Origin: Candidatus Pseudothioglobus aerophilus
Lineage (GTDB): Bacteria > Pseudomonadota > Gammaproteobacteria > PS1 > Pseudothioglobaceae
Direction of reading: 5' to 3'
Length of the DNA: 64,000 nt
NCBI GenBank assembly: GCA_014384565.1
Contig: JACNFO010000024.1
Coordinates: 1 to 64,000 of the forward strand
Of the stretch, positions 49,990 through 63,800 are shown one piece after another. The position numbers and the translations under genes are program-made. The notes under the pieces were generated by a model. That model was given only the letters and a program-made list of their open reading frames with translations. It ran no database searches and had not been told where the DNA came from. The first letter of the stretch is position 1. Every line of letters begins with the position of its first letter.

Positions 49990-50793
49990 TCACGTATGTT
50001 GCGCTTTTGGAGTTTGTTGTTTCTGTCGTCTTCCAATTAATGAGGCGGTTATTACGCCTAGAGTGACAACTCCTACTAAGATTGTTGAAACTGCATTTAT
50101 TTCAGGAGTGACTCCTAGCCTTACCATCGAATATATTTTCATTGGAAGGGTTGTAGAGCCTGGACCAGAAGTAAAGCTCGCAATTACAAGATCATCAAGT
50201 GACAGAGTGAAAGATAAAAGCCAGCCAGAGATAACTGCTGGGAGGATTATTGGAAGTGTTATTAGGGTAAACGTTCTAAATGGGGTGCACCCTAAGTCAA
50301 GCGCTGCCTCCGTTAGACTATCATCATAGCTTGACATTCTTGACTGCACAACAACTGCAACATAGCACATTGAAAATGTTATATGAGCCAAAGTCACAGT
50401 AAAAATACCTCGATCAATTGCAAGCGCAACAAACATAAGTAAAGTTGATAGCCCAATGATTACTTCTGGCATAACCATTGGCGCATAGATCATCCCTGAA
50501 AAAAGAGTTCTGCCTTTAAAATTACCAAAACGTGTCATTACCAGACCAGCAATAGTTCCTAAAATTGTTGCAATAGTTGAAGAAAAAAAAGCAACCTTTA
50601 TTGTTACCCAGGCGGCATCTTTGATACCCTGGTTTTGCAATAGCTCGCCATACCACTTAGTTGAGAAACCACCCCAAACTGTAACTAATCTTGATTCATT
50701 AAAGCTAAATAAAATTAATAATATTATTGGTATATATAAAAATGAAAAACCAACAATCAGTGAGAAAATATTGAAGCTACCAAACTTTTTCAT
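49990..50793 (-). CDS. potI: Putrescine/spermidine ABC transporter permease (PotI/PotC)
   Basis: Binding-protein-dependent permease; LTEAALDLGCTPFRTFTLITLPIILPAVISGWLLSFTLSLDDLVIASFTSGPG. Confidence 0.9.
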   Translation of the reverse strand: MKKFGSFNIFSLIVGFSFLYIPIILLILFSFNESRLVTVWGGFSTKWYGELLQNQGIKDAAWVTIKVAFFSSTIATILGTIAGLVMTRFGNFKGRTLFSGMIYAPMVMPEVIIGLSTLLMFVALAIDRGIFTVTLAHITFSMCYVAVVVQSRMSSYDDSLTEAALDLGCTPFRTFTLITLPIILPAVISGWLLSFTLSLDDLVIASFTSGPGSTTLPMKIYSMVRLGVTPEINAVSTILVGVVTLGVITASLIGRRQKQQTPKAQHT

Positions 50794-51704
50794 GAGATTG
50801 CCTTCTCTTGTGATCTCTGGTAAAGCATTATTGGGACAACGAGAATTGCAAGTAGAAGGATTGCGACTGCTGAGGCCACTGGCCAGTCTCGGTTATAGAA
50901 AAACTCTGTCCAAAGAACCTTTCCAATCATTAGCGTTTCAGAGCCGCCAAGTAAATCTGGGATTACAAACTCACCCATAACTGGTATAAAAACCAAGAAG
51001 CAGCCAGCGATAATTCCAGATAGAGATAGTGGAACAGTTACTGTCCAGAAGGCTTTAAAGGGTCTGCACCCAAGATCAGCCGCAGCTTCTAATAAACTCA
51101 TATCCATTTTTTCAAGATTTGCATACAGAGGCAGAATCATAAAAGGCAGATAAGAGTATACAATGCCAATATAGACTGCAAGATCAGTGTTCATTATCAT
51201 GAGTGGCTGTTCAATAATTCCTATGGACATTAAAGCTAAGTTAAGTAAGCCCTCCGTCTTTAGTATTCCAATCCACGCATAGACTCGTATTAAAAAAGAA
51301 GTCCAAAACGGAAGAATAACCAGCATGAGAAGTATTCCTCGCCATCGGGTGGGCGCTCTTGCGACGCTGTAAGCTATTGAGTAGCCTATTATTAGGGTTA
51401 GTATTGTTGAAATAAAGGCAATTTTTAAACTTGAAAGATAGGCCTTAATATACAAAGAGTCACTAAAAAGAAATAAATAGTTATCAAAGCTTGCTTTAAT
51501 TGAAGGTAGCCATGAATCTCCCCAAATTAGAAGCGAGGAATATGGCGGCCTTGCATAAATTGTTTCTGCAAAACTTATTTTTAAAACATAGATAAAAGGC
51601 AGTAAAAAAAGCAAAAGCAGCCAAATATATGGAATTGCAATTACGGCGTTTCTTCCATTAAAGATACTTTTAAAAAAATTTGGATTTGTTTGCATAAGCT
51701 TCAC
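50790..51704 (-). CDS. potH: Putrescine/spermidine ABC transporter permease (PotH/PotB)
   Basis: LEAAADLGCRPFKAFWTVTVPLSLSGIIAGCFLVFIPVMGEFVIPDLLGG. Confidence 0.9.
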   Translation of the reverse strand: MKLMQTNPNFFKSIFNGRNAVIAIPYIWLLLLFLLPFIYVLKISFAETIYARPPYSSLLIWGDSWLPSIKASFDNYLFLFSDSLYIKAYLSSLKIAFISTILTLIIGYSIAYSVARAPTRWRGILLMLVILPFWTSFLIRVYAWIGILKTEGLLNLALMSIGIIEQPLMIMNTDLAVYIGIVYSYLPFMILPLYANLEKMDMSLLEAAADLGCRPFKAFWTVTVPLSLSGIIAGCFLVFIPVMGEFVIPDLLGGSETLMIGKVLWTEFFYNRDWPVASAVAILLLAILVVPIMLYQRSQEKAIS

Positions 51705-51710
51705 AGGAAG

Positions 51711-52841
51711 CTAAGAAAGAAGGACCACAGCAGAATGCGGCGCCCATTGAAGGTAAACTTCATCATCCCATGTTAAATGGTGCTCTTTAGTTCGTTCACG
51801 ATTTGCACGTATTGCTTTTAAGATTCTTCCATTATCTAGTTTGACATGGTAAGTGGAAAAGCTCCCTCCATAGGCAATATCTTCAATCGTTCCTTTTAAT
51901 ATATTGTGATCATGAGATGGCGCTACTTTAGATATTTCAAGTTTTTCTGGCCTTATTGCAAACCACATTTCATCTTCAACTGAGGCGCCAACCTCTTGTG
52001 TTGCAAACACAATTGAATTTGAATCTTCAGAAAACAACTGAGTGCCAACTTCATTTTGTCCTTTGTAGATCCCCTTTAATATATTAACATCACCTATAAA
52101 GTCAGCAACATCCTTGTTAATTGGTGCTTCATAGATTTCTGCGGGTGTTGCAACTTGAACTAAATTTCCAGAATCCATAACGCCGATCCTACTTGAAACA
52201 GTCATCGCCTCTTCCTGGTCATGGGTAACAATAACAAAAGTGACCTCTAGTTTTTCCTGAATATCCATTAATTCAAACTGAGTTTGTTCTCTCAACCTTT
52301 TATCGAGTGCTCCTAAAGGCTCATCAAGAAGTAGTAATTTTGGACGCTTGGCAAGGCTTCTTGCAAGAGCAACCCTTTGACTTTGACCACCAGAGAGCTG
52401 ATTAGGTTTACGATTAGCAAAGTCAGTAAGCTCAACAAGCTCGAGCATTTCTTCTACTCTTTGATTAATCTCGTTAGCAGGAAGATTGTCTTGCTTTAAT
52501 CCAAAGGCAATATTTTTTTCAACAGTCATATGAGGAAAAAGCGCGTAGGACTGGAACATCATGTTAATTGGTCTTAGGTGAGGAGGTATTTCAGATATAT
52601 CTTCTCCATCCAAAAGAATCTTGCCATTAGTGATTTTTTCAAAGCCTGCAAGCATTCGAAGGAGCGTTGTTTTTCCGCAACCAGAAGGACCCAGTAAAGA
52701 GAAAAATTCATTTTTATAGATATCTAGAGTTAAATTATCAATTGCTGTAAATTCACCAAACCGCTTGGTGACATTTTGAATTTGAATGTAGGGTTTATGA
52801 CTTGAATCGAGCCAAGGGCTGACTTTAATAGTTTCAGACAT
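51711..52841 (-). CDS. potG: Putrescine/spermidine ABC transporter ATP-binding protein (PotG/PotA)
   Basis: LLGPSGCGKTTLLRMLAGFE, LSGGQSQRVALARSLAKRPKLLLLDEPLGALDKRLREQ; C-terminal TOBE. Confidence 0.93.
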   Translation of the reverse strand: MSETIKVSPWLDSSHKPYIQIQNVTKRFGEFTAIDNLTLDIYKNEFFSLLGPSGCGKTTLLRMLAGFEKITNGKILLDGEDISEIPPHLRPINMMFQSYALFPHMTVEKNIAFGLKQDNLPANEINQRVEEMLELVELTDFANRKPNQLSGGQSQRVALARSLAKRPKLLLLDEPLGALDKRLREQTQFELMDIQEKLEVTFVIVTHDQEEAMTVSSRIGVMDSGNLVQVATPAEIYEAPINKDVADFIGDVNILKGIYKGQNEVGTQLFSEDSNSIVFATQEVGASVEDEMWFAIRPEKLEISKVAPSHDHNILKGTIEDIAYGGSFSTYHVKLDNGRILKAIRANRERTKEHHLTWDDEVYLQWAPHSAVVLLS

Positions 52842-52862
52842 AGAATTATGATTATTAAAAAC

Positions 52863-52889
52863 CCTCCATGATGCAAAGCATCATGGAGG
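52863..52889 (-). terminator. Intercistronic hairpin between potF and potG
   Basis: Perfect 12-bp stem CCTCCATGATGC-TTT-GCATCATGGAGG followed on the minus strand by GTTTTTAATAA. Confidence 0.75.
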
Positions 52890-52905
52890 TAATAGTAGTT
52901 TAAAG

Positions 52906-53997
52906 CTACTGACCTGTTGTAACTTTAGTCCAGGTACGTGTTACCACTCTTTGAGATTTGGAATCGTATGTTGGGCTAATGTATAAACCTTCCATAACCT
53001 CAGGTGTTGGGTAAACCGCTGGATCATTTAGAAGATCTTCCTCTAGGAGAGGTTGAGAGGCTAGATTACCATTCGCATACCAAACATAGTTTGTTGCTGT
53101 TGCAATTTGCTCAGGATCCATTATCCAGTTAATATACTTATGTGCATTATCGGCATTAGGAGCGTCATCTGGAATTGCTAATTGATCAAACCACATCAGC
53201 GCGCCTTCATCAGGAATCGAATAAACGATTTCTACGCCATTTTCCGCATCCCAGGCTGCATATTGAGCCATAAACACATCACCCGACCAGCCAACAACTA
53301 GACATATATCTCCATTGGCAAGAGCATCAATGTACTGAGATGAGTGAAATTTTTGAATGTACGGACGAATCTTGGTCAAGACAGCTTCTGCTTTAGCTAT
53401 AACATCCGAATCAGTGCTTCTTGGGTCCTCACCAAGATAAGCAAGTGCTGCAGGAATTATTTCAGTTGGTGCATTTAGAAGATGAACGCCGCAATCGGCG
53501 AATTTTGAAACAACATCTGGATCAAAGACCATAGCAAGAGAGGTTGTAGGTGCATTCTCCATCCTTTCATTAATCAAGCCTTCGTTGTAGCCAATACCTG
53601 TTGTTCCCCACATGTAGTTAACAGAGTAGTCATTTAGAGGACCAAATTGTGCTACCTGCTCTTCAATATCGCTCCACATGTTTCCAATATTTGATAATTT
53701 TGATTTATCCAATTTTTGGAAAACACCCGCTTCAATTTGACGCGCTAAGAAACTACTCGAAGGAACGACAACGTCATACCCAGAGCTTCCTGCAAGAAGC
53801 TTAGCTTCTAGGACTTCATTAGAATCGAACACATCATAGACAACCTTAATGCCTGTTGCAGCTGTAAAGTCTGCATTAACCTGCTCATCAATATAATCAG
53901 ACCAGTTTAGAACATTAACTACTTCTTCTGCAATTACAGCTTGAGCAGTAAATGTTAACGCTCCAGCAATAAGTAGATTATTTAATTTATTTTTCAT
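52906..53997 (-). CDS. potF: Polyamine ABC transporter substrate-binding protein (PotF-like)
   Basis: Signal peptide; EEVVNVLNWSDYIDEQVNADFTAATGIKVVYDVFDSNEVLEAKLLAGSSGYDVVVPS. Confidence 0.95.
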   Translation of the reverse strand: MKNKLNNLLIAGALTFTAQAVIAEEVVNVLNWSDYIDEQVNADFTAATGIKVVYDVFDSNEVLEAKLLAGSSGYDVVVPSSSFLARQIEAGVFQKLDKSKLSNIGNMWSDIEEQVAQFGPLNDYSVNYMWGTTGIGYNEGLINERMENAPTTSLAMVFDPDVVSKFADCGVHLLNAPTEIIPAALAYLGEDPRSTDSDVIAKAEAVLTKIRPYIQKFHSSQYIDALANGDICLVVGWSGDVFMAQYAAWDAENGVEIVYSIPDEGALMWFDQLAIPDDAPNADNAHKYINWIMDPEQIATATNYVWYANGNLASQPLLEEDLLNDPAVYPTPEVMEGLYISPTYDSKSQRVVTRTWTKVTTGQ

Positions 53998-54035: not shown

Positions 54036-54098
54036 ATATTAAAGTTTATTCTTTAATATGCACTTTTTTTGAAATTACAATTCAATCATATATTAAAG
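54036..54098. repeat. Three copies of the 9-mer ATATTAAAG / CTTTAATAT upstream of potF
   Basis: Copies at 54036-54044 (+), 54051-54059 (inverted), 54090-54098 (+). Confidence 0.6.
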
Positions 54099-55451
54099 AT
54101 GCCTTAAATAAGAGTTATATTCGAAGTCAGTAATCGTACTTTCAAATCTTTTTATCTCAGATTCTTTGACACATTGATAGGATTTTTGAAACTTTTCACC
54201 AAAAAATTCTTTAACTACTGAGGATTCACTTGTTTTATGAACAGCTTCTCTCCAGGTTATTCCTAATGCAGCTTCATGCTGCGCATGAGCATTCCCAATA
54301 GTTTCTTTATCAAGTGGATATTTATTTGTAATTCCTGACAAAACACTTGAAAGAATGGACGCGAATACTAAGTAAGGATTCGAGTCTGCACTTGGAAGTC
54401 TAAACTCTAAACGCGTTGCTTTTGAGGATGCCTCAGGCAATCTTACTAGGGCAGTCCTATTTTCATTACCCCAGCTTAATGTTGTTGGAGCGTGATCTGC
54501 ATTATGAACTAAACGTCGATATGAATTTGAGTGTGATGCATAAAAAGAAAGAAAATCAGGGGCATTCTTTAAAAGGCCCGCAATAGAGTTCGCAAAGATA
54601 CCTTGAGGCTGTTTATCTTTATTGACTGAAAAAACATTGTTACCATCTTTATCAATAATGCTAAGGTGCGCGTGCATACCGTTGCCAGCTTGATCTGAAA
54701 AAGGTTTGGCCATAAAGGTGGCATTCATATTAAATTGTCTAGCGCAGTTTTTAATTAAGCGTTTCATTAAAAAGGCCTGATCAGCCATCAAGAGGGCGTC
54801 ATCATGATGTAGTAAATTAATTTCAAATTGTCCAGGTGCACACTCCTTGATGGCAGTCTCAGAAGGAATCCCTAGAGAGTGAGAACTTTTTTCTACTAGG
54901 GCAAAGAAGCTTTCAAAGTCATCCATCTCATTCAAGTTGAGAAGCTGAACATCTTCATATCTTCTGTTAGTGCCTGGAATGATTGGCATTTGTGGATGGC
55001 CATTTTTTTGCAATTGCTTATCAACAAGATAAAATTCCATTTCAGGAGCAATAACTGGCTTTAAATTAAGCTTTTGAAAACGCTCAAGTACTGAAGATAG
55101 GATTTGCCTTGGGTCTGCATAAATTGCCTCTCCATCACCGTTTTCCATACTAACAAGGCACTGGGCTGTCTTACGAGTACTCCATGGCGTGACTGCTAGT
55201 GAACTTATAACGGGCCTACATATTGCATCACCGTCACCTGACATTACCAGCCCAGTTCCCTTAGGGTTGTCACCCCAAACATCAAGTACATAGCTCGATA
55301 TAGGCATTTTAAGGCCACCATCAAAAGCTTTAATTAAAGTTTTTGGTGAGGCATATTTGCCTCTTGGGATACCATTAAAGTCAACATAGATAAACTCAAC
55401 TTTTTCAAGGTCAGAGTGCAGTTCTAAAAATTTTTTTGCAATATTTTCCAT
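54093..55451 (-). CDS. puuA: Glutamine synthetase family, gamma-glutamylpolyamine synthetase (PuuA/SpuI-like)
   Basis: GS fold (PVIAPEMEFYLV, NGMHAHLSI, NRTALVRLPEASSKATRLEFRLPSADSNPYL), linked to pot and polyamine genes. Confidence 0.87.
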   Translation of the reverse strand: MENIAKKFLELHSDLEKVEFIYVDFNGIPRGKYASPKTLIKAFDGGLKMPISSYVLDVWGDNPKGTGLVMSGDGDAICRPVISSLAVTPWSTRKTAQCLVSMENGDGEAIYADPRQILSSVLERFQKLNLKPVIAPEMEFYLVDKQLQKNGHPQMPIIPGTNRRYEDVQLLNLNEMDDFESFFALVEKSSHSLGIPSETAIKECAPGQFEINLLHHDDALLMADQAFLMKRLIKNCARQFNMNATFMAKPFSDQAGNGMHAHLSIIDKDGNNVFSVNKDKQPQGIFANSIAGLLKNAPDFLSFYASHSNSYRRLVHNADHAPTTLSWGNENRTALVRLPEASSKATRLEFRLPSADSNPYLVFASILSSVLSGITNKYPLDKETIGNAHAQHEAALGITWREAVHKTSESSVVKEFFGEKFQKSYQCVKESEIKRFESTITDFEYNSYLRHL

Positions 55452-55554: not shown

Positions 55555-55570
55555 ATTTGTGATCACAAAT
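55555..55570. promoter_or_regulatory. Candidate GntR operator, copy 1
   Basis: Perfect palindrome ATTTGTGATCACAAAT between divergent puuA-like and gntR genes. Confidence 0.75.
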
Positions 55571-55601
55571 TATAAATATAAATATAAATGATTAATAAAA
55601 T

Positions 55602-56276
55602 ATGAGTAAGGATATATTATCAAAAGTTAAACCAAGGGATTCAAAGCATAATACTAATGAATGGGTTTACAACTCTCTATGCCAGTTAATTCTTACAGGA
55701 GAATTTGTTCCTGGTATTTCTTTTACATTTAGAGGGATTGCTAATTCATTTGGAGTTAGCACAATGCCTGTACGTGAGGCTGCAAAGAGACTTATTTCTG
55801 AAGGCGCTCTTGATATGTCTGAAAAGCGAAGAATTACTGTCTCTCAGATGTCTCAATCTAAGTTTGATGAATTGATGATTGCTAGATTAAATTTAGAGCC
55901 TCAGTTATCTGTCCTTGCTTTAAAACATATTGATTCTAAAAGACTTAAACTACTGATAAATATAGATAAAAATCTTGATTATGCTATCTCAACTGGAAAT
56001 ATTGAAGACTACATTAAATACAATTATCAGTTTCATTTTGGTATTTATGAGGCTGGACTATCGCCTGTTCTACTTCCACTAGTAAGAACTTTATGGTTAC
56101 GTTTTTCACCTTTTTATAGAATTGTTGCAGGTAGAGCAGGAACTCAAACTCTGAAAGATTTTCATCATTCAGCTATTGATGCAATTATAGCTAAAGATTC
56201 TGTTGCTCTGGAAGTAGCTATCCATAGTGATATATTAGAAGGGATGGAAATGCTCAATGAATCTCTCAATGAGTAA
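55602..56276 (+). CDS. GntR family (FCD-type) transcriptional regulator
   Basis: GntR HTH GEFVPGISFTFRGIANSFGVSTMPVREAAKRLISEGAL plus FCD-type C-terminal domain. Confidence 0.93.
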   Translation: MSKDILSKVKPRDSKHNTNEWVYNSLCQLILTGEFVPGISFTFRGIANSFGVSTMPVREAAKRLISEGALDMSEKRRITVSQMSQSKFDELMIARLNLEPQLSVLALKHIDSKRLKLLINIDKNLDYAISTGNIEDYIKYNYQFHFGIYEAGLSPVLLPLVRTLWLRFSPFYRIVAGRAGTQTLKDFHHSAIDAIIAKDSVALEVAIHSDILEGMEMLNESLNE

Positions 56277-56362
56277 TCATACTTGATCTTATTGTTTAAT
56301 TTTATTTGCACATAATGAGTTAAAAGTTCTTGCGTTTATTCTCATTTATCTATATTATAATC

Positions 56363-56372
56363 TGTGATCACA
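56363..56372. promoter_or_regulatory. Candidate GntR operator, copy 2
   Basis: TGTGATCACA core (CTGTGATCACAA) upstream of aminotransferase gene, same core as copy 1. Confidence 0.7.
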
Positions 56373-56419
56373 ATATTTTTTATTAGCTAATTTATTGACA
56401 ATTTAATTGAGGAATTCTA

Positions 56420-57793
56420 ATGACTATAAGCACATCTGCTCTCCAACAAAAAAATGCTAAGCATCTTATTCAATCCTTTAGTGATTTAAGTTACATCAAT
56501 AAGCCTGAGGAAACTCATATCATCAGCCGAGCAGATGGAGTTTATATCTATGACAATGATGGTAAGAAGATTTTAGATAGTATGTCTGGCCTATGGTGCG
56601 TTAATATGGGCTATGGTCAACAATCAATTATTAAGGCTGTGAATGAGCAAATGAAAGAGCTTGTTTACTATAATAATTTCTTTGGGTCTAGTCATCCTTC
56701 TGCAATTAAGTTATCTGAAATGATTGCGGATAAAACTCCAGAAGGGATGAATAAAGTTTATTTTTGTGGTTCTGGATCTGAAGCAAATGATACTGTTGTG
56801 AGATTAACAAGACACTATTGGAGTGCAAAAGGCAAGCCCTCTAAGTCTGTCATTATTAGTCGTAAAAATGCCTACCATGGCTCTACTATGGCAGGGGCTA
56901 GTTTAGGAGGAATGAGCGCCATGCATGCTCAAGGCGGCTTACCAATTGCTGATATTGAACATGTAGAACAACCCTACTATTATGATGCTTGCGTCGAAGC
57001 AGGTGGAAAAATTGATGAGGATGAATTCGGAATTAAGATGGCTCAAAGCCTTGCTAAAAAGATTGACGAGCTTGGTGAAGATCGCGTTGCTGCATTTATT
57101 GCAGAGCCTGTTCAAGGAGCTGGAGGCGTTATTATTCCTCCAAAAACTTATTGGCCAGAGATTAGTAGAATTTGTAAAGAGAGAAATATCCTTTTAGTTG
57201 CAGATGAAGTAATATGTGGCTTTGGAAGGACTGGGGAATGGTTTGGCTCTGGACACTTTAACTTTAAGCCAGATTTAATGGCATTTGCAAAGGGAGTAAC
57301 TTCGGGTTATCTGCCAGTTGGAGGTGTTATTGTTCATGATGATATTGTGGATGTATTAGCCTCAGCTAAGGAAGAGTTTAATCATGGATATACTTATTCA
57401 GGACATCCAGCCTGTATGGCTGCAGCTATAGCTAATCTTGAGTTAATGGAGAGCACTAATATAATTCACCAAGTTAAAAATAATACCGCCCCATACTTGG
57501 GAAGCAAGTGGAAGGATTTAGAGAATCATTCCTTGGTGGGTGAAGCTAGACAACTTGGAATGCTTGCAGCAATTGAAATTGTTGAAGATAAAGAAAATTG
57601 CAAGCGATTTGATAATAGTGGAGAGATTGTTGGAAAATGCCGTGATTTTTGTTATGAGAACGGCATAGTAATGAGGGCAATTAAAAATAAGATGGTTATT
57701 TCTCCTCCTTTAATTTGTACTAATGAGCATATTGATGAGATAATTGAAAAGGTTTGGAAGTGTCTTGATTTGACTGCCAAATCAATTAAGTAA
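56420..57793 (+). CDS. spuC: Class III aminotransferase, putrescine/omega-amino acid:pyruvate aminotransferase (SpuC-like)
   Basis: LDSMSGLWCVNMGYGQ, GSEANDTVVRL, ADEVICGFGRTGEWFGS, LMAFAKGVTSGYLPVGGV. Confidence 0.85.
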   Translation: MTISTSALQQKNAKHLIQSFSDLSYINKPEETHIISRADGVYIYDNDGKKILDSMSGLWCVNMGYGQQSIIKAVNEQMKELVYYNNFFGSSHPSAIKLSEMIADKTPEGMNKVYFCGSGSEANDTVVRLTRHYWSAKGKPSKSVIISRKNAYHGSTMAGASLGGMSAMHAQGGLPIADIEHVEQPYYYDACVEAGGKIDEDEFGIKMAQSLAKKIDELGEDRVAAFIAEPVQGAGGVIIPPKTYWPEISRICKERNILLVADEVICGFGRTGEWFGSGHFNFKPDLMAFAKGVTSGYLPVGGVIVHDDIVDVLASAKEEFNHGYTYSGHPACMAAAIANLELMESTNIIHQVKNNTAPYLGSKWKDLENHSLVGEARQLGMLAAIEIVEDKENCKRFDNSGEIVGKCRDFCYENGIVMRAIKNKMVISPPLICTNEHIDEIIEKVWKCLDLTAKSIK

Positions 57794-57806: not shown

Positions 57807-59075
57807 GTGCAATCTTATTACCTAGCATCTCGAAATATTGAGATTGATCAACCTAAGCTTACTGGCGACGTGCATGCTGACGTTTGCATAATTGGCGGAG
57901 GCTACACGGGTTTATCGACCGCTCTTTATTTAGCAAAAGAAGGAGTAAATGTTCTCCTACTTGAGTCCAACAAGCTGGCATCTGGAGCCTCTGGTGCTAA
58001 TGGAGGCCAAGTATCTGGTGGTATGAGAAGGGATCAGTTCTATCTAGAAAAAAAGTTAGGAGTTGATTATGCTAAAGTTTTATGGGAGATTGGCGAGAAA
58101 TCAAAATATCACGCTAAATATCTAATTGACCAATATCAAATTCAGTGTGATTATAAAAAAGGTATTGCCCACCCGAATCATAAGCAAAAATATTGCGAAG
58201 AGTCAAAACAATATGTAGATCATATGAATGAAAACTATGATTATCATGACATTGAGTATTTGAATGATAATGAAATGAGAGATGTGACTGGCTCAAATAC
58301 ATATTATGGAGGTAGTTATGATGAAGGCGAGGCTCATTGTCACCCACTTAATTATGCACTTGGGATTGCAAAAGCTGCTATCTTAGCAGGCGCAAAGATC
58401 TTTGAAAATAGTCCTGCATTAAGTTATAAGATTAATGATGACCATGTAAAGGTAATAACTAAAGATGGCTCCATCAAAGCAGATCGGGTTGTTCTGGCTT
58501 GTAATGGTTACCTTGGTAATCTTGAAAAAAGCTTAACATCAAAAATACTGCCAATGAACAATTACATTGTTGCTACAGAGGCGCTAGATGACCAGACTGT
58601 TAAAAAAATTAACCCAAGAGATATCGCCTTTGCTGACTCTAGGTTTGTTATTAACTATTTTCGATTGAGTGCTGATAAGCGCTTACTTTTTGGTGGCGGT
58701 GAAAATTATTCACAAGAACTGTCGAATAATATTATTCCAATAGTCACCAAGCCTTTAGAGAAGATTTATCCATTTTTAAAGGGCGTAAAAATTGATTATG
58801 CTTGGGGCGGGAAGCTTGCGATAACGATGAATCGCCTGCCATTCTTTACAACACTCCATCAAGATAAAATTATATCTGCTCAGGGCTATTCTGGTCAAGG
58901 TGTTGCTCTTGCTAGCTACTCTGGAAAATTAGTTTCTGAGAAAATTACTGGAAATGGAGAGACTTTTGATATTATGGCAAAGATTCCAAGGCAAAGTTTC
59001 CCTGGTGGAAGGTTTCTTAGGAATCCAAGTATGAAGCTTGGCATGCTATATTATTCGCTAATGGACCGATTATAA
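57807..59075 (+). CDS. puuB: FAD-dependent oxidoreductase, gamma-glutamylputrescine oxidase-like (PuuB)
   Basis: ADVCIIGGGYTGLSTALYLAKEGVNVLLLE dinucleotide-binding motif; DAO fold; GTG start. Confidence 0.82.
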   Translation: MQSYYLASRNIEIDQPKLTGDVHADVCIIGGGYTGLSTALYLAKEGVNVLLLESNKLASGASGANGGQVSGGMRRDQFYLEKKLGVDYAKVLWEIGEKSKYHAKYLIDQYQIQCDYKKGIAHPNHKQKYCEESKQYVDHMNENYDYHDIEYLNDNEMRDVTGSNTYYGGSYDEGEAHCHPLNYALGIAKAAILAGAKIFENSPALSYKINDDHVKVITKDGSIKADRVVLACNGYLGNLEKSLTSKILPMNNYIVATEALDDQTVKKINPRDIAFADSRFVINYFRLSADKRLLFGGGENYSQELSNNIIPIVTKPLEKIYPFLKGVKIDYAWGGKLAITMNRLPFFTTLHQDKIISAQGYSGQGVALASYSGKLVSEKITGNGETFDIMAKIPRQSFPGGRFLRNPSMKLGMLYYSLMDRL

Positions 59076-59110: not shown

Positions 59111-60085
59111 ATGAGTACTGATGACTTTGAAGATATAAAGACTGATCAAGCTTTCACTAAAAAAACTCTCTATGGCAGAGACAATGAAATGACCTATGGC
59201 GGCGCTCTTAGTTTTTTAAGGCGCAAGTATACAAAGAATCTAAAGGGTGTTGATATTGCTGTGAGCGGCATTCCATTTGACGCTGCAACGAGTTTTAGAC
59301 CTGGTGCAAGGTTTGGCCCGAAAGCAATAAGAGAGGCCTCAGTTCAGCTTGCAGAATTATTAGCATTTCCAGATGGAATCGATCCCTTCAAAACATTAGC
59401 AGTAACAGATTATGGAGACTGTGAATTGGATTATGGTTTTCATGGAAATGTGGTTGCTCAAATCGAGGCTCATGCTAAAACTATATTAGACTCTGGGGCA
59501 GAGATGCTCACTTTTGGGGGTGATCATTTCGTAACCTATCCACTTTTAAGGGCACACGCTGCAAAGCATGGACCGGTTGCGCTTGTTCATTTTGATGCGC
59601 ATACAGATACGTGGCCCGATGAAGATGGGAGGCTTGATCATGGCACGATGTTTTCAAGAGCCATCAAAGAAAATTTAATTGATACCGGGCACTCCATACA
59701 AGTTGGAATAAGAACTCATAATAGCAATACCAAGGGGGTGACTATTCTTGATGCGCCATGGGTTCATGAGAATGGCGTAAATAAAGTAATTAAAAAAATA
59801 ATTGAAGTCGTTAAAGATCGCCCTGCATACCTTACTTTTGATATTGATGGGCTTGACCCAGCCTATGCACCTGGAACTGGAACACCAGTCTCGGGAGGTT
59901 TAACTTCTGCCCAGGCCTTAGGAATTATTAGGGGCTTAGAAAATTTAAATTTTATTGGTGCAGATGTTGTTGAAGTGGCTCCAGTTTATGATCATGCTGA
60001 AATTACAGCAATTATTGCAGCGACTATTGCGCATGATTATCTAGTTATTAGGGCAAAACAAAAAATGAAAAAAGTAAAAATTTAA
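59111..60085 (+). CDS. speB: Agmatinase / ureohydrolase family
   Basis: GGDH, VHFDAHTDT, TFDIDGLDPAYAPGTGTPVSGG. Confidence 0.88.
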   Translation: MSTDDFEDIKTDQAFTKKTLYGRDNEMTYGGALSFLRRKYTKNLKGVDIAVSGIPFDAATSFRPGARFGPKAIREASVQLAELLAFPDGIDPFKTLAVTDYGDCELDYGFHGNVVAQIEAHAKTILDSGAEMLTFGGDHFVTYPLLRAHAAKHGPVALVHFDAHTDTWPDEDGRLDHGTMFSRAIKENLIDTGHSIQVGIRTHNSNTKGVTILDAPWVHENGVNKVIKKIIEVVKDRPAYLTFDIDGLDPAYAPGTGTPVSGGLTSAQALGIIRGLENLNFIGADVVEVAPVYDHAEITAIIAATIAHDYLVIRAKQKMKKVKI

Positions 60086-60097
60086 TTTCTTAAGAAT

Positions 60098-60817
60098 ATG
60101 ATGAAAATTGGAATATTATTAGTCGGAAGGGCTTCAGAAGATTTGGTTGAAGAATATGGTACTTATGCAGAAATGCTTATTGCGCTTATTAATTCTGAAG
60201 AGCAAGTGTTTGAGTTTAAAACATTTAATATTCTTGATTCAGTATTTCCAAAAGATCACCTTGAGTGTGATGGATGGATTGTTACTGGCTCTCCACACGG
60301 CGTTTATGAGGGACACTCTTGGATACCAGTAGTCAGTGATCTGATTAAAAATATCTATAAAGACAGACTACCAATCTTTGGAGTATGTTTTGGTCACCAG
60401 TTAATTGCCCAAGCGCTTGGAGGACATGTTGAAAAGTCAATAAAAGGATGGGGTTTGGGACTTCATACTTATCAAATTAGTAATAAAACAGGTTATATGA
60501 GTAACTTGTTGGAGGAGGTGACCTTAAATATTTGTCATCAAGATCAGGTCCTTCAAGCGCCAGTCGGCGCTACTGTTTATGCAAAATCTGATTTTTGTGA
60601 AAATGCTGGTTTTTATATTAAAGATAAAGTTCTTACAATGCAAGCGCATCCAGAGTTTTTGGTTGATTTCACAAAGGACCTTCTAGCAGCTCGAAGAGAT
60701 ATAACAATTCCAAAAGAATTTGTAGACCCTGCTTTAATTAAGCTTAAAGCGAAGCCAGAAAGCGTTCAATCAGCTCAGTTTGCTGAGACTATAAGGCAGT
60801 TTTTTAAATTAAGTTAG
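60098..60817 (+). CDS. Class I glutamine amidotransferase-like protein (GMP-synthase type)
   Basis: DGWIVTGSPHGVYE, FGVCFGHQLIAQALGG nucleophile elbow, QAHPEF. Confidence 0.85.
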   Translation: MMKIGILLVGRASEDLVEEYGTYAEMLIALINSEEQVFEFKTFNILDSVFPKDHLECDGWIVTGSPHGVYEGHSWIPVVSDLIKNIYKDRLPIFGVCFGHQLIAQALGGHVEKSIKGWGLGLHTYQISNKTGYMSNLLEEVTLNICHQDQVLQAPVGATVYAKSDFCENAGFYIKDKVLTMQAHPEFLVDFTKDLLAARRDITIPKEFVDPALIKLKAKPESVQSAQFAETIRQFFKLS

Positions 60818-62050: not shown

Positions 62051-63010
62051 TTATTTATCATTATCGCCAGTATTTTCAGCAAAAACACCTCTTTGACGAA
62101 GAAGTTCTCTATGAAGGTTTTTTTTGGCTATAAATTTGTCTCTTCCATGAAGCCAGCAATAATTATTAATAATAAGCATACTGCCTTCGGGTAATTTTAT
62201 ATTTGAAGTATTCGTCTCTTTTTCAAGTGACTCTCCCATTTCATATAAATAAAGCCCTTGCTCAATATTCAAAGGTTCAACGAATTGATCAATAAAAGAC
62301 ATAATTGGCTTTCCATCATTCATCTCCTCTAAAAAGATTGGATGAGACGTTTTATAAGCAATATTTTTACTAGAGGGCGATCCCCATTGAAGATTTTCTT
62401 TTGCTAATGGATGATGATAAAATTTGTCCAAATCTTTCCAATCATCAACATGAAGTAAAAGTGAATCACCACCTTCGACATCAATTTCAAGAATTTTTTG
62501 CATGATTACCCAGTCAGTAGTCTCTTCAACATAAGTCCCATCATTGTGGAGTTCCATTCTGCGATGAGCTTGACGGAGGTAGCTGTCACTATTATCTTCA
62601 TTTTTAACACTAAATCTTGCATAAAACTTGCCAGACATTGAATCAAGGTTTGGAATGCCGATAAGATGAGAAATTGCCGTAGAAAGTAGAACATTAAAAT
62701 CTATAAACTCTATTCCGTTAAGCGTTGAGTTATTTAATAGCTCACATTCCAGTAATATTGCCCCTGTTGATCGATTCTTAAGAGTTTTTAATAGAAATTT
62801 ACCTAAAGTATCATCGGTTAGCTTGTTTAGACAATTAGCAAGATAAAACCTTAAAAACGGTTTATATTCAATTGATTGAACATTGTAATCAACTATTTTC
62901 TTAGAAAATTTTTCTACAGTATTTTTTGATAGCTTAAGGACCTGAACTCTTGAGTTATTTTTGTGTTGACTCAATTCAAAACCAACATTTAAAGTATTTT
63001 TTGAATTCAT
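62051..63010 (-). CDS. glaH: Glutarate 2-hydroxylase CsiD/GlaH (Fe(II)/2OG dioxygenase)
   Basis: RRMELHNDGTYVEETTDWVIMQKILEIDVEGGDSLLLHVDDW and INNYCWLHGRDKF; adjacent to lhgO. Confidence 0.9.
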   Translation of the reverse strand: MNSKNTLNVGFELSQHKNNSRVQVLKLSKNTVEKFSKKIVDYNVQSIEYKPFLRFYLANCLNKLTDDTLGKFLLKTLKNRSTGAILLECELLNNSTLNGIEFIDFNVLLSTAISHLIGIPNLDSMSGKFYARFSVKNEDNSDSYLRQAHRRMELHNDGTYVEETTDWVIMQKILEIDVEGGDSLLLHVDDWKDLDKFYHHPLAKENLQWGSPSSKNIAYKTSHPIFLEEMNDGKPIMSFIDQFVEPLNIEQGLYLYEMGESLEKETNTSNIKLPEGSMLIINNYCWLHGRDKFIAKKNLHRELLRQRGVFAENTGDNDK

Positions 63011-63032: not shown

Positions 63033-63050
63033 AATAATGTCGACATTATT
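63033..63050. promoter_or_regulatory. Candidate GntR (GlaR/CsiR-like) operator
   Basis: Perfect 18-bp palindrome AATAATGTCGACATTATT between divergent glaH and gntR genes. Confidence 0.65.
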
Positions 63051-63137: not shown

Positions 63138-63800
63138 ATGGATACTTCTAAGCAAAATACAGCTTCTAAAATTCTTGATGCATTAACGAGTGATATTATT
63201 CAGGGCGTGTTCCCACCTGGGGAAAAATTACAAATTAAAACTTTAAAAGATCGCTATAAAGTTGGAACAAGTCCAATTAGAGAAGCACTATCGCAACTAA
63301 TTGCCAAAGATTTAGTTGTTTCTGAAAACCAAAAAGGCTTTTATGTTAGTAATATATCTATTGATGATTTAACTGACATTTATCAGGCAAGATCAAAAAT
63401 AGAGGGCTTATGTCTTGATATGGCTATAAAAAAAGGTGGTGATTTTTGGGAGTCAAAAATAATTGCAGCTTCTCATTTATTAGCTAAATATAGCAAATCT
63501 GAAAATATTGATATGGACGAATGGCAAAATCGACATTTTTCATTTCACGAAGCATTGGTTTCTGGTTGTAATTCCCCAAGGCTTTTTCAGATAAGGCAAT
63601 CACTTTATGAAAAATCTACCCGATACCGAAATCTTTGGCTTCAAGAAAACGTTACTAACTATGAAAGGCTGCAAGCAAATCAGAACGAGCATGTTGCGCT
63701 TATGGTATTGGTGCTTGAAAGGGATTCCATGCCTGCTCAAAAGCTTATAGAGGCACACATAATGACACCGGTCGAGATTATAAAGAAAAACCTGCCTTAA
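63138..63800 (+). CDS. GntR family (FCD) transcriptional regulator, GlaR/CsiR-like
   Basis: GVFPPGEKLQIKTLKDRYKVGTSPIREALSQLIAKDLV HTH; divergent from glaH. Confidence 0.9.
   Translation: MDTSKQNTASKILDALTSDIIQGVFPPGEKLQIKTLKDRYKVGTSPIREALSQLIAKDLVVSENQKGFYVSNISIDDLTDIYQARSKIEGLCLDMAIKKGGDFWESKIIAASHLLAKYSKSENIDMDEWQNRHFSFHEALVSGCNSPRLFQIRQSLYEKSTRYRNLWLQENVTNYERLQANQNEHVALMVLVLERDSMPAQKLIEAHIMTPVEIIKKNLP

Follow-up and report, generated by a model that had tools for sequence, protein, structure and literature searches.

Two copies of the palindrome TGTGATCACA flank the gntR gene of a putative polyamine/agmatine catabolic island of Candidatus Pseudothioglobus aerophilus. They very probably serve as operators for the product of this gene, a GntR/FCD protein predicted to act as a dimeric repressor of both arms of the island and to be released by an amine catabolite.

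Two copies of one palindrome flank gntR in a putative polyamine island

The features of the window, the 64-kb stretch of DNA that was analyzed, are listed in Table 1. The island is assigned to polyamine/agmatine catabolism by its gene content. In the left arm, the puuA-like protein scored 179 bits with GGputSyn, under the 650-bit cut-off of this model, and remained below every equivalog cut-off. In the right arm, the aminotransferase, oxidase, agmatinase, and amidotransferase genes form one tight run, and the genes for LhgO, CsiD, and a CsiR-type GntR protein come next.

Table 1. Position, strand, and assignment of the features of the island (positions are those of the window).
Feature	Position	Strand	Sequence, location, or basis of assignment
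Operator 1 (predicted)	55555-55570; core TGTGATCACA 55558-55567	unstranded	ATTTGTGATCACAAAT; divergent puuA/gntR promoter region
Operator 2 (predicted)	56362-56373; core TGTGATCACA 56363-56372	unstranded	CTGTGATCACAA; upstream of the aminotransferase operon
Predicted promoter of the aminotransferase operon	56330-56358	+	TTGCGT (56330-56335), 17 bp, TATTAT (56353-56358)
GntR family regulator, winged helix and FCD, 224 aa	55602-56276	+	Pfam GntR and FCD above cut-off
puuA-like, glutamine-synthetase-like (gamma-glutamylamine synthetase type), first gene of left arm	54093-55451	-	Pfam Gln-synt_C
ABC transporter (binding protein, ATPase, 2 permeases), left arm	49990-53997	-	Polyamine type by context; syntenic in relatives
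Class-III aminotransferase (PRK07480 subfamily), first gene of right arm	56420-57793	+	NCBIfam NF005682, 701 bits (cut-off 510)
FAD-dependent amine/amino-acid oxidase (DAO family)	57807-59075	+	Pfam DAO
Agmatinase	59111-60085	+	NF002564 and TIGR01230 above cut-off
Class-I glutamine amidotransferase-like hydrolase, possible gamma-glutamyl hydrolase	60098-60817	+	Pfam GATase

An earlier note on this DNA had described one palindrome in both promoters flanking gntR, and direct reading at both coordinates confirmed it. The geometry was also as described: operator 1 lies between the divergent puuA-like and gntR genes, and 47 bp separate the end of operator 2 from the aminotransferase ATG. GT and AC are 4 nt apart (GATC) in every site, and the operator consensus is approximately WWTTGTGATCACAAWW. 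Control by Dam methylation through the central GATC was considered and rejected, as no D12-type methylase was found in the 8 genomes checked.

The window contains 2 copies of TGTGATCACA and no further match with one mismatch. The genome-wide scan that the note had proposed as a check yielded 3 copies in the 1.47-Mb assembly, which is 91% complete, so that a further site could be missing from this count. Two of the 3 are the sites flanking gntR and the third lies within a HAD-like coding sequence, a coding match that was found again in relatives. With one mismatch allowed, the genome contained 9 matches compared with 11 for the reversed control, which is no excess. Could 2 copies of a 10-bp palindrome stand near one regulator gene by chance? 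A first-order Markov model predicts approximately 1.3 copies of TGTGATCACA per genome, and chance copies do exist in coding sequence. However, under the same model the probability that both spacers contain one exact copy is approximately 2e-8, and, as still stronger evidence, the sites are conserved across families and inherited together with gntR (see below). These comparative data refute an origin by chance, to which we assign a negligible probability.

The regulator is a GntR/FCD protein distinct from the neighboring CsiR type

The protein encoded between the 2 sites has an N-terminal GntR winged helix (PF00392, 43.7 bits, cut-off 27) and a C-terminal FCD ligand domain (PF07729, 50.4 bits, cut-off 24.3). 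GntR and FCD were the only domains found; the XRE helix-turn-helix and cupin domains of PuuR and PauR were not detected in this protein. The closest solved structure is that of McbR (4p9f, E 1.4e-17), and this sequence match suggests a 4p9f-like fold. The best NCBIfam match was the McbR equivalog PRK11414, at 81 bits, under its cut-off of 225. The score with the CsiR equivalog PRK11534 was 28.9 bits, far under the cut-off of 218 that the neighboring CsiR-type protein (63138-63800) exceeds with 229 bits. The 2 GntR proteins of the window are 24% identical, and the FCD histidines H145 and H188 are common to both in the alignment. Residues 141, 145, 188, and 210, which we take to be the FCD metal-ligand positions, are N, H, H, and D in the island regulator and its aligned orthologues; position 210 is His in the CsiR of the window. 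N141 presumably replaces a canonical metal-binding residue, and the ligand or metal chemistry of this protein may differ. The candidate recognition residue Arg44 tracks the presence of the site, which accompanies 27 of the 39 alignment rows with Arg and 2 of the 11 others (Fisher p 0.004); this covariation is only suggestive, because the rows share ancestry.

The sites are conserved and come and go with gntR

The phylogenetic footprinting that had been proposed was carried out on 7 aligned genomes of the family, with GntR identities of 59-100%: the 10-mer cores of both sites are invariant while the surrounding spacers have diverged. Among 13 genomes at the level of the class, in which the best gntR homologue has 29-45% identity, an exact TGTGATCACA lies within 350 bp upstream of that homologue in 8 and a one-mismatch site in 3 more, and the second, downstream copy is also kept in several. 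In other gammaproteobacterial families, the exact site was found upstream of gntR orthologues with identities down to 33-44%, often with the second copy. Two of the 13 genomes (G346, 3.0 Mb, and G236, 3.6 Mb) contain exactly 2 copies of TGTGATCACA, both flanking gntR. Outside the class, some homologues have the site (L144, L148, L159), and many homologues with 31-39% identity in other Pseudomonadota lack it.

We next compared 22 genomes of the family in which the puuA-like gene is intact; in all of them, the aminotransferase gene lies divergently beside puuA. gntR stands between the 2 genes in 7 of these genomes, each of which has an exact copy of the site upstream of puuA. The other 15 have no gntR, and none of them has the site upstream of puuA, where the best match has 3 to 4 mismatches. 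Fisher's test for 7/7 against 0/15 gave 6e-6, a value that, like every p-value quoted here, ignores the ancestry shared by the counted genomes, and the independent changes number only three. On well-supported branches of the puuA tree, in which the genome of the window groups with 2 gntR-less genomes, the presence of gntR changed at least 3 times, and the site moved along each time. We therefore predict that the palindromes are the binding sites of the gntR product, since they come and go with its gene. Comparative genomics thus strongly supports the proposal of the earlier note that the encoded regulator coordinates both arms. Because regulator and sites were gained or lost jointly at least 3 times at one locus, a comparison of the same operons with and without this regulation amounts to a natural experiment.

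In the 15 gntR-less family genomes (L174-L190), puuA and the aminotransferase gene are directly divergent; the 3 spacers that were read share TATAGTGTA, perhaps the unregulated promoter of these loci. The note had named a palindrome common in unrelated promoters as an outcome that would speak against its proposal. This is not what was found: 22 gntR-less genomes of the genus contain 6 copies of TGTGATCACA in all, every one inside an ORF (the same HAD gene for 5 copies). A general promoter element is thereby ruled out.

The palindromes might belong to another regulator, either one of the CRP/FNR type acting on TGTGA half-sites or another GntR protein, with gntR as a bystander. TGTGA and TCACA are CRP-like half-sites, and a second GntR protein, of the CsiR type, is encoded nearby. 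However, the half-sites abut without the 6-bp gap of a CRP site (TGTGA-N6-TCACA), as had been pointed out before, and the sites vanish with gntR although the target genes stay. Sharing with the CsiR-type protein is ruled out by a different palindrome in the csiD-csiR intergenic region. Ownership by another regulator is thus very unlikely. This other palindrome, AATAATGTCGACATTATT (63033-63050), is a perfect one of 18 bp between csiD (62051-63010) and the CsiR-type gntR (63138-63800); it is probably the CsiR operator, of GT-N2-AC form, a prediction made because AATGTCGACATT is kept in 3 relatives (G002, G010, and G024).

Three observations count against reading the palindromes as operators of the GntR protein. 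Many of the more distant homologues lack the site, as noted above, and the 4-nt spacing departs from the N2-N3 norm of FCD-type proteins (see below). In addition, in G002, a single-contig relative, a TAG cuts the gntR frame (L102:7978-8583) at approximately 201 of 224 residues, and both sites are intact.

Promoter geometry points to repression of both arms

The predicted promoter hexamers of the aminotransferase operon are conserved in the alignment around operator 2 and score under the threshold of the consensus scan. Operator 2 opens 3 to 4 nt past the -10 hexamer, and the predicted transcription start (approximately 56365) therefore falls inside it. This is a classical repressor position, from which we infer repression. 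The promoter regions of gntR and puuA overlap, and operator 1 is located there, which implies autoregulation. In the mechanism that we propose, a GntR/FCD dimer would sit on each operator. The dimer on operator 2, 3' of the -10 hexamer, would cover the start and block the aminotransferase-oxidase-agmatinase-amidotransferase operon, and the dimer on operator 1 would repress the puuA-like/ABC-transporter arm, which would serve uptake and activation, together with gntR itself. An amine-derived catabolite would free the repressor, and both arms would be induced together.

The protein could instead bind both sites and, at one arm (that of puuA, for instance), activate transcription or have a dual effect. 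A possible extended -10 element for puuA is located downstream of operator 1, at a distance that varies in relatives. Such a role is nevertheless improbable, considering that operator 2 overlaps the predicted start and that CsiR and LhgR, FCD regulators of such a layout, are repressors.

The site follows relocated pathway genes and suggests a wider regulon in a subclade

In 2 relatives (G010 and G026), the agmatinase and amidotransferase genes are no longer part of the operon and are arranged face to face, and their shared promoter region contains 2 copies of the site, 89 bp apart. A third relative (G047) has one copy at its agmatinase/amidotransferase pair. Taking these 3 genomes and G024 together, every one of the 19 copies in the genomes is located upstream of gntR or of an amine-related gene. 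Besides gntR or its neighbors, the targets in these 4 genomes include a trimethylamine monooxygenase (NF058570, 812 bits), a lysine/arginine/ornithine binding protein, and an acyl-CoA dehydrogenase (glutaryl-CoA dehydrogenase-like, below cut-off) that is followed by a succinate-glutarate CoA-transferase-like gene. The operator is located 27 to 28 bp upstream of the acyl-CoA dehydrogenase/CoA-transferase-like genes of G010 (L085:1-1981) and G026 (L089), which suggests that the regulon of these 2 genomes reaches glutarate/lysine-type catabolism.

The trimethylamine monooxygenase (tmm) promoters with TGTGATCACA are those of G024 (L090:660-2009, 2 copies), G026 (L088:648-1991), and G010 (L086:596-1957). 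They account for 3 of the 24 tmm loci of the genus, all 3 in gntR-bearing genomes; the other 21, including the tmm locus of the window, do not have the site. The predicted wider regulon is therefore a feature of a subclade and not of the window. The link to trimethylamine oxidation in this subclade is a concrete and unexpected prediction, and the analysis as a whole yields an operator and a regulon, both open to testing, for the use of polyamines by marine bacteria with small genomes.

Comparison with known regulators

That a GT-N4-AC core fits GntR operators, as the earlier note had it, is true of the HutC type, for which this spacing is the norm, but not of the FCD/FadR type, whose operators have TKGT/ACMA boxes and a normal GT-to-AC spacing of 3 or 2 nt (PMC4494728). 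Operator 1 (TTGT...ACAA) has the boxes of the FadR type and operator 2 (CTGT...ACAA) matches one of them fully. The island operator thus resembles that of the FadR subfamily in its boxes and departs in its 4-nt spacing from a typical, not defining, N2-N3. The main text of the catalogue of GntR regulators contains no polyamine or putrescine entry (PMC4494728). In titles and abstracts of the open-licence literature, we found no bacterial operator of this kind for TGTGATCACA, which regulon databases might hold, and nothing relevant on the motif or on GntR regulators of polyamine genes was returned by searches of this literature.

McbR/YncC of E. coli, also an FCD GntR protein, provides the closest structure, but the equivalog score is too low for an assignment to McbR, which has been reported to bind dihydrofolate and to occupy numerous AT-rich sites containing an ATATAT motif (PMC13343897). 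CsiR and LhgR are FCD GntR repressors of glutarate and L-2-hydroxyglutarate catabolism, respectively, and are alike in layout: a local FCD-type repressor beside a catabolic operon, an operator on the promoter, and release by a pathway metabolite (PMC6667623, PMC8206213). Their sites differ from the GT-N4-AC of the island, since those of LhgR are GT-N3-AC (TTGTCTGACAA) and the csiD-csiR palindrome of the window is GT-N2-AC.

PauR of Pseudomonas aeruginosa and PuuR of Escherichia coli are XRE-cupin repressors of polyamine catabolism. Like the island regulator, they are associated with palindromic operators that precede their own gene and the genes of gamma-glutamylation/polyamine uptake, and the targets of PauR also include scattered loci such as davD-davT (PMC7901475). 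Unlike them, the island protein is of the GntR/FCD type, and is thus a functional counterpart and no homologue: a GntR/FCD regulator is predicted to fill here the role that the unrelated PuuR and PauR hold elsewhere, which places one pathway under an unrelated repressor family. On balance, we favor the view that the GT-N4-AC operator TTGTGATCACAA is read by a so far undescribed clade of GntR proteins of the FCD type, which occurs in several families of Gammaproteobacteria and in some other Pseudomonadota and acts as the non-homologous counterpart of PuuR/PauR, and that in some marine relatives it has grown from a local switch with 2 sites to an amine regulon with trimethylamine monooxygenase and the acyl-CoA dehydrogenase/succinate-glutarate CoA-transferase (glutarate) operon.
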